64,000 nucleotides of DNA from Candidatus Zipacnadia bacterium. GTDB lineage: Bacteria; Armatimonadota; Zipacnadia; Zipacnadales; Zipacnadaceae. Positions 21,270-63,550 of this stretch are shown one piece after another. The DNA lies in the NCBI GenBank assembly GCA_029820565.1, contig JALGUR010000022.1, positions 1 through 64,000 of the forward strand, given 5' to 3'. The position numbers and the translations under genes were made by a program. Below the pieces are notes generated by a model, which saw nothing but the letters and a program-made list of their open reading frames with translations, had not been told where the DNA came from and made no database searches. Numbering within the stretch: the first letter of the stretch is position 1; every line of letters starts with the position of its first letter.

Positions 21270-23363
21270 TTAGGTTTCTACCTGCAGGTAGTCGCGCAGT
21301 ATCTGAGTACGACGGGGATCGCGGAGTTTCTTGAGCGCTTTGGATTCAATCTGGCGAATGCGCTCGCGGGTGACATCAAAGATGTGGCCTACTTCCTCCA
21401 AAGTGCGAGGATAGCCATCCTCCAGGCCAAACCGTAGTTTGAGCACTTCGCGCTCGCGTCCCGTGAGGTCGTCCAGCACCCGATTGAGTTGTTCACGCAG
21501 TACCAGATTAGAGGCCAGATTAACGGGGGTTTCTTCTTCTTCATCAGGCACAAAATCGCCGAGGTAATTATCTTCTTCTTCACCGATGGGAGCCTCCAGA
21601 GAGAGAGGCTCAGGGGCAATACGTTTGACTTCGGCGACCCTCTCGACAGGCATATCCATCTCCACAGCGACCTCATCAAGGGTGGGTTCGCGGCCGTATT
21701 GCTGGAGAAGTTGTCGTGAGGTCTTGACCAACTTGTTGATGGTCTCGACCATATGGACAGGGATACGAATGATGCGGCCTTGGTCAGCCAAGGCCCGGGA
21801 GATAGCCTGGCGAATCCACCAGGTAGCATAAGTGCTGAACTTGTAACCCTTACGATAATCAAATTTCTCTACGGCCCGCATCAGTCCCACATTGCCCTCT
21901 TGGATCAGGTCCAAGAAACTCATTGCGGAGCGCCCGGTATACTTTCGGGCGATGCTAACCACCAGACGGAGGTTAGCTTCAGCCAACGCGGCAACTGCAT
22001 CTTCGTCTCTGAGTTTCATACACGAGGGGTCTATGCTGCCGGGATCCACAATGCGAGTGAAAGACGCTTCGATGAGACCATACAAGCCAGCTCCCTCGGT
22101 CTCATCAGGCGGGAAAATGGAACCTACCTGCATGGCAGTGCGGGTCGCGGTCGTAGTGAAGTCAACGGTAACCGGTTCGGGCAAGGGGTAGCCGGTAGTT
22201 CCTTTAATACCATCCTCGCCTGCCTTCAAAGTTAGCGTATAGGCCATCTCAGTGGTCAAAGGATCGCGGGGCAAGAAGCGAATTTGACGGCGCTCAGCGT
22301 CATAATAAACCTTTCCGGAGACGGGATTATTCATTGCGTCCCGGACTTTGACGGTCTTAGAGGTGACCGTACTGGGGTCTAATTGGCGATCCACAGTAAC
22401 TGTGATGGGAGCAGCAATGCTAACGTTGGTAGCCTCCGCAGCAGGTTGAGTATTCACCACCCGAGGGGCCGCCTTCCGATAAGTAGTTTCAAACTGAAAC
22501 GTGTAATCAGCCGCCAGAGGACGGCCGTCCTCGGTATTGATGCCTTCCTCATCTCCTCGGACGGTTACAGCAAGTTTGTTGCGATGGCGCAGGGGCTGTT
22601 TGGGAGTAAACACCAGCCGCCAGGGGTCAGGCCCCACTTTGACTCTCCCCAGAACCTGGCGACCTTTGCCATCAATAACTTCTATCTTCTGGGACGTGAC
22701 CGACGCGGGATCCAGAGCATCATTGAAATAGATGATGATGGGACTATCCACGTCCACCTGCTGTTGACCGTCAGCCGGATAGGTTCTGGTTATCTGCAAC
22801 GGACCATCAGCCGCACGAGTTCGGAACGACCACATATAGTCAGAAGCCAGCGAGTGGCCAGTAATGTCGTATAAACCATCATCACCGTCACGCAAGATTA
22901 CGACGTAGAGAGTATCCGGTTCCAGGCGCTCGTGGGGGTGAAAGCGCAGAGCGTTATGGGCCTTGTCATAGCTCAATTCTCCCTCGCCTTTTTGGACACG
23001 TCGAGCTAGTTCTACCTCCTGCTCAGCGGTCAGCAGAGGCACCTGCCCAATAGCATGTAGATACATACGGACTGAATCATCAACCGGTACACCTTCATCC
23101 TCGTCGGCTGTATCTTCTTCTTCCTCCTGGCGATGTTCCCGGGTGGCCTTTTCATCCTTCGCCACATAAATACCGGCACCGTGTAAGACTCGATATATCT
23201 CCTCAATATCCTTGGCGTCCAGAAGTTCATTATCAGCCAAGGCTTCCTGAATATCACTATACGTTAGATAGCCCTGCTCGCGTCCCTTGGTTAGCAGGCT
23301 TTCCACTTCGTCAATGTCCCGAACGTCAGCCGGTTTTTTGTCAGTCTGTTCGTCCTCGGGCAA
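21270..23363 (-). CDS. rpoD: RNA polymerase primary sigma factor RpoD with inserted Ig-like (Big_5/SbsA-type) domains
   Basis: Regions 1.1/1.2 ([33 protein letters not shown]); regions 2-4 ([85 protein letters not shown] ... [39 protein letters not shown]); downstream of dnaG. Confidence 0.93.
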
Positions 23364-59841: not shown

Positions 59842-59887
59842 GGTTTTATCAGAGTGGTTAGCATCTCCGGGCCTTCACTTGCTACAT

Positions 59888-60676
59888 CTACGTATTCGCA
59901 AACTTCTCGGGCAGGGCGCTCTTGACTCCCTGCACCATTCCCACCGCCGCTTCCCAGTAGGTATCGATATCCTGGCTCAGCGGTATGAAAGTGGAGCCCA
60001 TCCTGATCTGCTCTATGGCCGCCTCCACGCTCATCACATGGCGCCCGTAGGGAATGTTGGCGTGGCGACATGCTTCAAATACTCGCCCGATGGCCGCCGT
60101 CACCTCGGGGTGATCGCTGTTTCCCCGGTGCCCTATGGAGGCCGCCAGATCATCGGGGCCAATCAGCACCGCCTCAATGCCCTCAATCTCCAGTATCTGC
60201 TCAATGTTTTCTACGGCCTTGCCCCGCTCGATCTGGGCAATAACCATAATCATGTCGTTGGCTCCGGCCGTGTACTCGTCGAATTCCATATCCCAGCGAT
60301 TGGCCCGCGCTGAGCAGATACCCCGCACTCCCTCAGGACCAAAGCGTGTAGCCGCCACTGCTTCCCTAAACTGCTCGGGCCTCTCCAGCATCGGTATCAC
60401 CACACCCTTCACCCCCGTGTCCAGAGTTCTTTTCATGATGCCCCGGTCAGGTGTGGCCACGCGCGCCAACGGTACGGTGCCCGTGCCGGCGCAGTCTATC
60501 CCCTGGCAGATGTGCACCAGGTCATCGTACGAAATCGTGGAGTGTTCACAGTCCGCCACGATCCAGTCATACCCCACCGAAGCCATCAGCTCCGCCAGAG
60601 AACTGTTGTTCAGCGTCAACCAGCCTCCGATAGTGGGCATGCCCGCCTTCAGCTTTTCGCGAAGGGGATTAATCAT
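59888..60676 (-). CDS. HpcH/HpaI aldolase family protein
   Basis: GWLTLNNSSLAELMASVGYDWIVADCEHSTISYDDL; KGVVIPMLERPEQFREAVAATRFGPEGVRGICSARANRW; VLIGPDDLAASIGHRG. Confidence 0.9.
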   Translation of the reverse strand: MINPLREKLKAGMPTIGGWLTLNNSSLAELMASVGYDWIVADCEHSTISYDDLVHICQGIDCAGTGTVPLARVATPDRGIMKRTLDTGVKGVVIPMLERPEQFREAVAATRFGPEGVRGICSARANRWDMEFDEYTAGANDMIMVIAQIERGKAVENIEQILEIEGIEAVLIGPDDLAASIGHRGNSDHPEVTAAIGRVFEACRHANIPYGRHVMSVEAAIEQIRMGSTFIPLSQDIDTYWEAAVGMVQGVKSALPEKFANT

Positions 60677-60936
60677 AGTCCCTACCTCCTGTTTGGTCGT
60701 GAGTGTGTGGTCATGCTATTGGTTCTCCGAACCCCGTCCGATGGCCTTCAACCTCGCTTTGTCATTCAATACTATTGCCCAACCTACCTCTCACAATTGC
60801 GAGGCCGTTGCGAAAGCCACCTGTCATTGTTGCAGGGCGGGCTTGATGTCAACACAGTGGTGTGCCAGAATCATCGGTAGTAGTTGGACGATTGTTCTGT
60901 GGCAAGAGTGATGTGACTAATGCAAGGTAAGCCTGT

Positions 60937-62265
60937 TCAGGAAATGCTGATGCGGATCAGTTCGTAGTGTTGGTTGATAACATCCAACTGCGCGGTTAGA
61001 GTTTTAATGTCCTGCTGGATCTGAGAGGCCGAGCGCTGGTTCATCAAGTCGCATACTATCGCTAATCCTCTTGTAGACTGAGGGATGTCCTTGTCCAGCG
61101 TGACACTAACTTGGACTGTTCGTCGGCCGGGAACCGCCGCCAGTTCATAGCCAAGTTGAATGGGCACCGAGTCGCCATTGCTGCCCTCATAAACAATTAC
61201 CGGAAGGGCCCTAACAGTCACCACCCCTGCGTTGTGAAGTGATACCGCCACCCGGGGAGGAGGCCCGGGTAGAAATCTCACCTGCTTGATGGATAGTTCA
61301 GCCTCTACGCGGTTCACCTTCAAAGCGGATAGCGGGTCAACCAGACCCCAGCCCCGCTTGAGTGACCAAGTCTGATCACCAGCAGTTGCCGTCAGGACGG
61401 TCCGCACTTGGCCGGCATCCCATTCGGGATGCTGCGAGAACAGTAGAGCAGCAATTCCCGAAATGTGGGCAATTGCCGGACAGCCGCCGCTGATCTCTTT
61501 GTAGCCATGATCGCTTGAAATACAGGAAAGTACGCCATAGGCGCGGGCACCCGGCTGCGCACTGCTGCCCCAGGCTCCGGGAGGATAGTCGCGGAAGCCG
61601 CCCGGGGCCATGATCTGAGTCACCGGGCCATAGTCCGCAAAATCAGACGCATTGCCTTGTTTGTCACAGGGCGCTACGTTGAAGACCCCGGGATACACCG
61701 AAGGATATCCCAAGCAGCATTGAGCACCGTTGCCTCCGGTAGCCGACACTATCAGTACGCCATAATCGGCGGCATGCTGACAGGCGTTGAACAGGTCATC
61801 GGCGGACGGAATGGTCCACGAACCACGAGGGGCATCTCGCCCTCGGGCAATGTCCTTCTGGTAGCCAGCGTCGCTCAGGTTTATTACGCGGGCACTTTCC
61901 TCCACCGCGATGCGGATACCACAGACCAGGTGTTGGTCATCATAAGAGTTACAGCGTATAGGCAAAATGCGACACTCTGGGGCAAGCCCGCAGATGCCCA
62001 TGCCATTATCAATCTGGGCCGCGATGATGCCGCACATCTGGGTGCCGTGGTCAGCGAATTTCGGCTCTGACCACTGGTTCCACAGGTCAATTGGCTTCAG
62101 CATAACGCGTTGGAGGTCTGGGTGTGTCAGGTGCACACCCCGCTCAATAACTGCTACGCTGACCTCTGCCCTGCCCCGCTGGATTGCCCACACTTCAGGA
62201 AATCCTAACATGTGTAGGTTCCACTGCTGCTCGAAAAGCGGGGCATTGGGCCAGAAACTCGCCAT
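60937..62265 (-). CDS. Subtilisin (S8)-family protein with substituted catalytic residues
   Basis: VAVIERGVHLTHPDL; DHGTQMCGIIAAQIDNGMGICGLAP; ISGGCPAIAHISGIAALLFSQHP, aligned by eye to DTG / HGT / GTSxAxPxVxG motifs. Confidence 0.87.
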   Translation of the reverse strand: MASFWPNAPLFEQQWNLHMLGFPEVWAIQRGRAEVSVAVIERGVHLTHPDLQRVMLKPIDLWNQWSEPKFADHGTQMCGIIAAQIDNGMGICGLAPECRILPIRCNSYDDQHLVCGIRIAVEESARVINLSDAGYQKDIARGRDAPRGSWTIPSADDLFNACQHAADYGVLIVSATGGNGAQCCLGYPSVYPGVFNVAPCDKQGNASDFADYGPVTQIMAPGGFRDYPPGAWGSSAQPGARAYGVLSCISSDHGYKEISGGCPAIAHISGIAALLFSQHPEWDAGQVRTVLTATAGDQTWSLKRGWGLVDPLSALKVNRVEAELSIKQVRFLPGPPPRVAVSLHNAGVVTVRALPVIVYEGSNGDSVPIQLGYELAAVPGRRTVQVSVTLDKDIPQSTRGLAIVCDLMNQRSASQIQQDIKTLTAQLDVINQHYELIRISIS

Positions 62266-62347
62266 AAGTTACCCCTTTGCGCCCTGCCGTAGAGACTATG
62301 TCCTCGGCTCTTTACCCACTTCCACACTCAGCACGACAGTCCTGCCT

Positions 62348-63550
62348 CTACAACATACAGCACTGCTTGTATTTGCGGCCGCTGCCGCAGGGGCAGGGAT
62401 CATTGCGGTCGGGCGGACCGGCTGTGATATGGAGTTGGTCAAGGGGCCGGCGTTCAACCGCTACTTGATGGGCCAGTTGCGCCATACGGCTCTTGCTATA
62501 GGCAAATAATGCCCGATAAGCGCGACAGAGATAGGTCGGTTGGGCGGGATTGTCAGCAAAGAGAGTGCGATACTTCACACAACCTCCGTGACATATATCC
62601 AGCCATCCGCATTCCTGACACTGCTGACTATACTGGCTTTTGCGGGCTGCAAATTCTTGGCGGTGGGTAGAAGATAAGATCTCGGATAAGGGCTGCTCGG
62701 TAATATTGCCCAGACGCCACTGCGGGTCACAGAAAAAGTCGCAAGCGTAAATGTCGCCGTTGTACTCGCAAACAACGTAGTCCGAACAAGAGTCTTTGAA
62801 TTTGCACGAAGGGATAGTTTCTTCGGCATAGGTGATGAGAAGTTCGTCAAATAACCGGACATACAGCGAACCAGGCTCAGCGACCCACAGGTCAAACATT
62901 TCACACTGGAAATGACCATACTGTCGGGCGGTTATGGAAAAATCAGCAATCGCCGAGCCGTCCGGGGTAGTCTCCACGCAGGGAATGAATTGCAGATAAG
63001 TCAAATCATTGTGCAGGAAGAACTCAGCCAGCGCCTGGGGATAATCTACATTAGCCTCAGTAAGCAGGACCAAGATATTGAATTCTACCTGGTATTGGCG
63101 AAGAGCCTGGATCTCCGCCATCACTTGGCGGTGCGAGCCCGAGCCGTTGGCGAATGTCCGATAACGGTTATGCATCGGAGCCGGCCCATCCAGGCTGACC
63201 CCCACCAGGAACCGATTCTCCGCCAGGAAAGCAGCCCAGTCCTCATCAATGATGATAGCGTTGGTCTGGAGACTGTTGGTAATCTGCTGGCCTGGTGCTG
63301 CCATCTTTTGCTGGAATTCTATTGCCCGCCGGTAGAAGTCCAGCCCAGCCAGAGTAGGTTCCCCGCCCTGCCAGCAGAATGAGACCGGCTCACCAAAGTC
63401 TATCGTCTGGCCTATCAACTCCTCCAGCACAGCCTGTGACATTCGGTGGCGCGCAATTTCGGGGTACAGGACAGCCTTGGGGCGATAAAAGCAATACTCG
63501 CAGGCCAGGTTACAATCGGCGGAGACTGGCTTGACCAGGATCTGAACCAT
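62348..63550 (-). CDS. Radical SAM/SPASM protein resembling anaerobic sulfatase maturases (anSME), with C-terminal SEC-C zinc motif
   Basis: CNLACEYCFY; FCWQGGEPTLAGL; GVSLDGP; SPASM cysteines QCQECGWLDICHGGC; C-terminal DRNDPCPCGSGRKYKQCC. Confidence 0.92.
   Translation of the reverse strand: MVQILVKPVSADCNLACEYCFYRPKAVLYPEIARHRMSQAVLEELIGQTIDFGEPVSFCWQGGEPTLAGLDFYRRAIEFQQKMAAPGQQITNSLQTNAIIIDEDWAAFLAENRFLVGVSLDGPAPMHNRYRTFANGSGSHRQVMAEIQALRQYQVEFNILVLLTEANVDYPQALAEFFLHNDLTYLQFIPCVETTPDGSAIADFSITARQYGHFQCEMFDLWVAEPGSLYVRLFDELLITYAEETIPSCKFKDSCSDYVVCEYNGDIYACDFFCDPQWRLGNITEQPLSEILSSTHRQEFAARKSQYSQQCQECGWLDICHGGCVKYRTLFADNPAQPTYLCRAYRALFAYSKSRMAQLAHQVAVERRPLDQLHITAGPPDRNDPCPCGSGRKYKQCCML

Follow-up and report, generated by a model that had tools for sequence, protein, structure and literature searches.

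Subtilisin has for decades been the textbook serine protease. In the window, the stretch of 64,000 nucleotides analysed here (positions 1 to 64,000 of contig JALGUR010000022.1 of a Candidatus Zipacnadia bacterium), a subtilase gene encodes glutamate and cysteine where the family has its catalytic aspartate and serine, and the question is whether such a protein is the remnant of a protease or a working enzyme with a cysteine nucleophile. A preliminary description, made from the sequence alone, reported both substitutions and left a pseudo-protease and a Cys-nucleophile variant as the two readings. From comparisons of sequence we consider it probable, at roughly 0.65, that the window protein belongs to a clade of naturally occurring Cys-nucleophile subtilases, and is most likely a thiol acyl-transfer enzyme.

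Catalytic positions and fold

The gene has the sequence AAAGGGG a short distance 5' of its start codon. No prodomain or signal peptide is apparent in its product. The relevant features are the following.

60937-62265, minus strand: Glu-His-Cys (E/H/C) subtilase gene, intact open reading frame of 442 amino acids, ATG start
Residues ~1-315: catalytic domain of the subtilase
Residues ~324-405: C-terminal beta-sandwich of the subtilase
62143-62145, minus strand: Glu41 codon GAG, position of the triad Asp, in VIERG replacing V[IV]DTG
62047-62049, minus strand: His73 codon CAC, triad His, in HGTQMCG
61729-61731, minus strand: Asn179 codon AAC, candidate oxyanion-hole Asn, in ATGGN
61480-61482, minus strand: Cys262 codon TGT, position of the nucleophilic Ser (subtilisin 221), in GGCPAIA replacing GTSxAxP
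61477-61479, minus strand: Pro263 codon, position of subtilisin 222
61468-61470, minus strand: Ala266 codon, position of subtilisin Pro225 (P225A in subtiligase)

The Pfam model Peptidase_S8 (PF00082) matches residues 34-307 with E=1.1e-32, spanning profile positions 3-288 of 288. In a multiple alignment with 43 ordinary subtilases, the latter have Asp at column 41 (42/43), His at column 73 (42/43) and Ser at column 262 (41/43), and therefore no canonical Asp or Ser is located elsewhere in the protein. Alignment with thermitase gives the same triad assignment. Together with a check of the codons, these alignments confirm the Asp-to-Glu and Ser-to-Cys substitutions of the preliminary description, which had also placed the TGT codon at its exact coordinates and had rightly described the His motif, HGTQMCGIIAA, as kept. 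The window protein is thus a member of the S8 family by homology that lacks the Asp-His-Ser triad of S8 serine peptidases. Its candidate oxyanion-hole residue, Asn179, is invariant in the E/H/C family and is shifted by one column relative to the canonical Asn of the aligned subtilases.

An AlphaFold model obtained from 42 sequences, an alignment that left out the Chloroflexota orthologs described below, has a mean pLDDT of 82, with values of 90-98 for most of the subtilisin core. It replaced an earlier model from 10 sequences, which was poor (pLDDT 56). The predicted fold is subtilisin-like, with TM-scores of 0.86-0.90 of the target to subtilisins and thermitase. Thermitase is the closest solved sequence (E=1e-39; TM-score 0.90). 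The Pfam alignment and the structure prediction had both been proposed in the preliminary description, and both place the protein among the subtilases. The best named model was that of the mycosins (TIGR03921), but its score of 172 bits lies below the curated cut-off of 279 and the protein does not qualify as a mycosin.

Relatives and the descent of the cysteine subtilases

With the window protein as the sole query, a genome-wide scan gave no match; it took profile searches to reach the family. No close relative was found in the 291 genomes searched of its own phylum, Armatimonadota, and plasmid and viral searches returned ordinary or distant subtilases only. When a profile was run against 400 genomes of the phylum to which one Chloroflexota relative belongs, homologs with the same E/H/C set did emerge, as the preliminary description had advised seeking. 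Full-length orthologs, with 44% identity over the full length, occur in four Chloroflexota genomes, which gave the only matches among the 41 genomes of their class. Their motifs include VAVIEKG and VAIIEKG (an acid motif of the V[IV]EKG type), DHGTH, TGGN and SGGCMA. Residues E41, H73, N179 and C262 are invariant across the window protein and the four orthologs, and the E/H/C set is thereby conserved in two phyla.

Among the four Chloroflexota orthologs, dN/dS is 0.07-0.15, which means that they are under strong purifying selection. This bears on whether the unusual residues result from a sequencing error or from decay of the gene. The absence of the subtilase gene from two congeners that were searched would fit decay, but the 442-residue reading frame is intact and the orthologs carry the same residues. 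Because all four share the E/H/C set, with synonymous codon differences between orthologs at the Glu (GAG/GAA) and Cys (TGC/TGT) sites, chance and sequencing error are excluded, and sequencing error is refuted as the source of the E/H/C family. Close homologs with a normal triad, which the preliminary description had named as a sign of such an error, were not found. For error and decay taken together, the remaining probability is negligible.

A second family retains the aspartate and also has a cysteine nucleophile position (D/H/C). It comprises 12 proteins from Armatimonadota, Planctomycetota and Chloroflexota, with the motifs [IV]DLGY (IDLGY), HH[AVST]F and GGCMA, and both types co-occur in four Chloroflexota genomes. 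A tree of 60 subtilases places the E/H/C proteins in one clade and the D/H/C proteins in another. The two are joined with support of 99/93, and still with 97/87 after removal of the columns of the three catalytic motifs from the 60 sequences. Cys (GGC) subtilases are thus one clade that excludes the sampled Ser subtilases, and have a single ancestry. The simplest history would be a single replacement of Ser by Cys, with a single replacement of Asp by Glu thereafter. A D/H/C profile gave the window protein 115 bits, the best-scoring Ser subtilase 89 and its own members at least 716, and the link between the two types appears to be distant.

Two peculiarities were seen within the D/H/C family. 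The protein of genome G021 (L054:8872-10350, minus strand) has about 41 extra residues after its NTA motif that are absent from all other members. Two proteins from the Planctomycetota search (L063:5603-7093 and L153:1381-2853, both plus strand) have what appears by eye to be an N-terminal signal peptide, unlike other members, and the clade may therefore work in more than one compartment.

Genomic neighbourhood

The subtilase gene is flanked by two genes on the same strand, the maturase gene being located 82 bp upstream.

62348-63550, minus strand: anaerobic sulfatase maturase (radical SAM/SPASM, SEC-C tail), TIGR03942 413 bits, cut-off 349
59888-60676, minus strand: HpcH/HpaI-type aldolase, missing, as is the subtilase, between pyrB and the maturase in two congeners

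Because a bona fide maturase adjoins the subtilase, we considered that it might oxidise Cys262 to formylglycine. The maturase motif is C-x-[A/P]-x-R, and the C-P-A of the window protein fits its start. The motif Arg, however, is missing (C-P-A-I-A), and the protein does not match the pattern of a maturase substrate. In congeners L132 and L133, the maturase, 80% and 72% identical to that of the window, lies tail to tail with pyrB at a distance of about 20 bp, with no subtilase or aldolase. The maturase is moreover a core gene, present in 36 of the 46 genomes of the class, and the window's genome has ordinary CSPSR sulfatases as its substrates, while the Chloroflexota genome G292, which carries an E/H/C ortholog and may be incomplete, gave no maturase match at all. 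On synteny, core-gene distribution, the lack of a match in G292 and the missing Arg, formylglycine at Cys262 was rejected as highly improbable, and the maturase probably does not belong to a subtilase system. Since the congener maturases adjoin pyrB directly, the subtilase and aldolase look inserted. The pair occupies positions 59842-62347 between pyrB and the maturase, reflecting an insertion here or a loss in L132 and L133.

The relatives have other neighbours. Chloroflexota E/H/C genes share a neighbourhood in which they adjoin solute-binding protein genes, with an M14 carboxypeptidase-like gene nearby. M14-like genes were found at four E/H/C loci and one D/H/C locus, which hints at a common pathway, and D/H/C subtilases often adjoin a NodB deacetylase gene, which is present at five of their loci in two phyla. 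These neighbours give a hint of peptide or glycan processing. The window subtilase has neither NodB nor M14 neighbours nearby, and a search of its genome for an M14 partner, run with no positive control, was empty. The M14-like genes near a Chloroflexota E/H/C gene (L158:12407-13567, minus strand) and near an Armatimonadota D/H/C gene (L046:11796-12959, minus strand) are 28-30% identical.

A role in a defence system was rejected, the only indication being a weak PADLOC subtilase match of 48 bits, and so was a role in RiPP biosynthesis, as there are no RiPP neighbours. Elsewhere in the window (21270-23363, minus strand), a primary sigma factor with Sigma70 regions 1.1, 1.2, 2, 3 and 4 has an apparent Big_5 Ig-like insert between regions 1.2 and 2. 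The insert matches in two stretches (1e-41), is unusual for a cytoplasmic sigma factor, and may be due to misassembly.

Proposed chemistry and known counterparts

Replacing the nucleophilic Ser of subtilisin by Cys is a classic experiment. The S221C mutation alone drastically reduces activity, leaving the enzyme nearly dead, and protease activity does not survive without a second change, at position 225 (PMC7921005, PMC6642262). Mutation P225A restores activity by providing room for the sulfur, which yields subtiligase; Gly and Ser at 225 were even better for synthesis in a later screen, and peptiligase variants carry the subtiligase changes plus M222P (PMC7921005). In subtilisin numbering, the sequence G-G-C-P-A-I-A of the window protein gives C221, P222 and A225.

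The same features recur throughout the clade. All 17 members, from three phyla, have the Cys, always with the His, and GGC in place of GTS. The residue at +4 from the nucleophile, the Pro225 position, is Ala, Gly or Ser in 17/17, whereas it is Pro in 34 of the 43 Ser subtilases (Fisher p=8e-9 against the clade, relatedness uncorrected). A small residue is undiagnostic, since 9 of the 43 Ser subtilases have one too. Of the arguments from sequence, the co-variation of the Cys with a small residue nevertheless speaks most strongly for a Cys that is a working nucleophile and not a remnant, although it falls short of proof. At the position of Thr220 in the GTS motif, every one of the 17 members has Gly, whereas 43/43 Ser subtilases have Thr; in subtilisin, Thr220 helps to stabilise the transition state.

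The pseudo-protease reading holds that the E/H/C proteins have no catalytic activity and serve in binding or as a scaffold, with the Cys used for structure or redox sensing. The change of two of the three triad residues, the loss of Thr220, the lack of an apparent prodomain and the near inactivity of S221C subtilisin would agree with this. A pseudo-protease, however, need not keep His73 and the Cys/small-residue pair for so long, and these are invariant in both subfamilies and in three phyla. Furthermore, Glu retains a carboxylate at the position of the triad acid, and after mere loss of the Ser one would expect Ala, Gly or Thr at this position somewhere in the clade, but no member has any of them. 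We therefore regard a pseudo-protease as rather unlikely and favour the other reading of the preliminary description, the Cys-nucleophile variant: the Cys is kept in every relative together with the His and the small residue, and neither a canonical residue elsewhere in the protein nor a close homolog with a normal triad contradicts it. That description had noticed neither the conserved family behind the pattern, nor the subtiligase-like co-variation, nor the maturase next to the gene.

As a Cys-nucleophile enzyme, the window protein would use His73, held by Glu41, to activate Cys262, which would attack the carbonyl of a peptide, ester or thioester to give a thioester acyl-enzyme. This intermediate could then react with water, making the protein a cysteine hydrolase, or with an amine, making it a ligase or transpeptidase. 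For the window protein we infer the assembly and activity of the triad, the formation of the thioester and the type of substrate. Counting against an active enzyme are the Gly at the Thr220 position, the displaced oxyanion Asn of the E/H/C proteins, and the Glu, whose side chain has one more carbon than that of Asp. We lean away from ordinary proteolysis in view of the thioester chemistry, the pairing of Cys with a small residue as in subtiligase, and the missing Thr220. The window protein, like the other clade members, has the combination of Cys221 and a small residue at 225 expected of a subtiligase-like acyl transferase. A bolder proposal, which we put forward tentatively, is that the clade consists of natural subtiligases, i.e., mainly peptide ligases, transpeptidases or macrocyclases acting through a thioester, most of them without an apparent signal peptide and with Glu as the triad acid in the E/H/C branch.

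The subtilase fold and family, and thiol-subtilisins as engineered enzymes, are already known. None of the open-access papers searched describes a naturally occurring clade of Cys subtilases, and a 2022 survey of subtilases gave no match for the terms for such a replacement that were tried. If the proposed reading is correct, a natural lineage that has kept both changes in three phyla would directly test the conversion of a serine protease into a cysteine enzyme, and the clade would be a possible source of ready-made ligases.

Among known systems, the S8A subtilases thermitase and subtilisin have their fold, triad topology and His motif in common with the window protein, which differs by Glu for Asp, GGC for GTS, the lack of Pro at 225 and of an apparent prodomain or signal peptide, and an extra C-terminal beta-sandwich. 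Mycosins are Ser proteases of ESX (type VII secretion) systems, whereas the window protein is of the E/H/C type. The D/H/C GGC subtilases share with it the Cys, the GGC motif, the small +4 residue and the C-terminal domain, but keep the Asp, show HH[AVST]F where the window protein has HGTx, and are about 27% identical. Subtiligase and peptiligase, engineered from subtilisin BPN' (S221C/P225A, later with M222P), have Cys at 221 and a small residue at 225 as in the clade, and Pro222 is also found in the window copy. Unlike these enzymes, the window protein, a candidate acyl transferase, is natural, has Glu as the triad acid and has Gly rather than Thr at 220.
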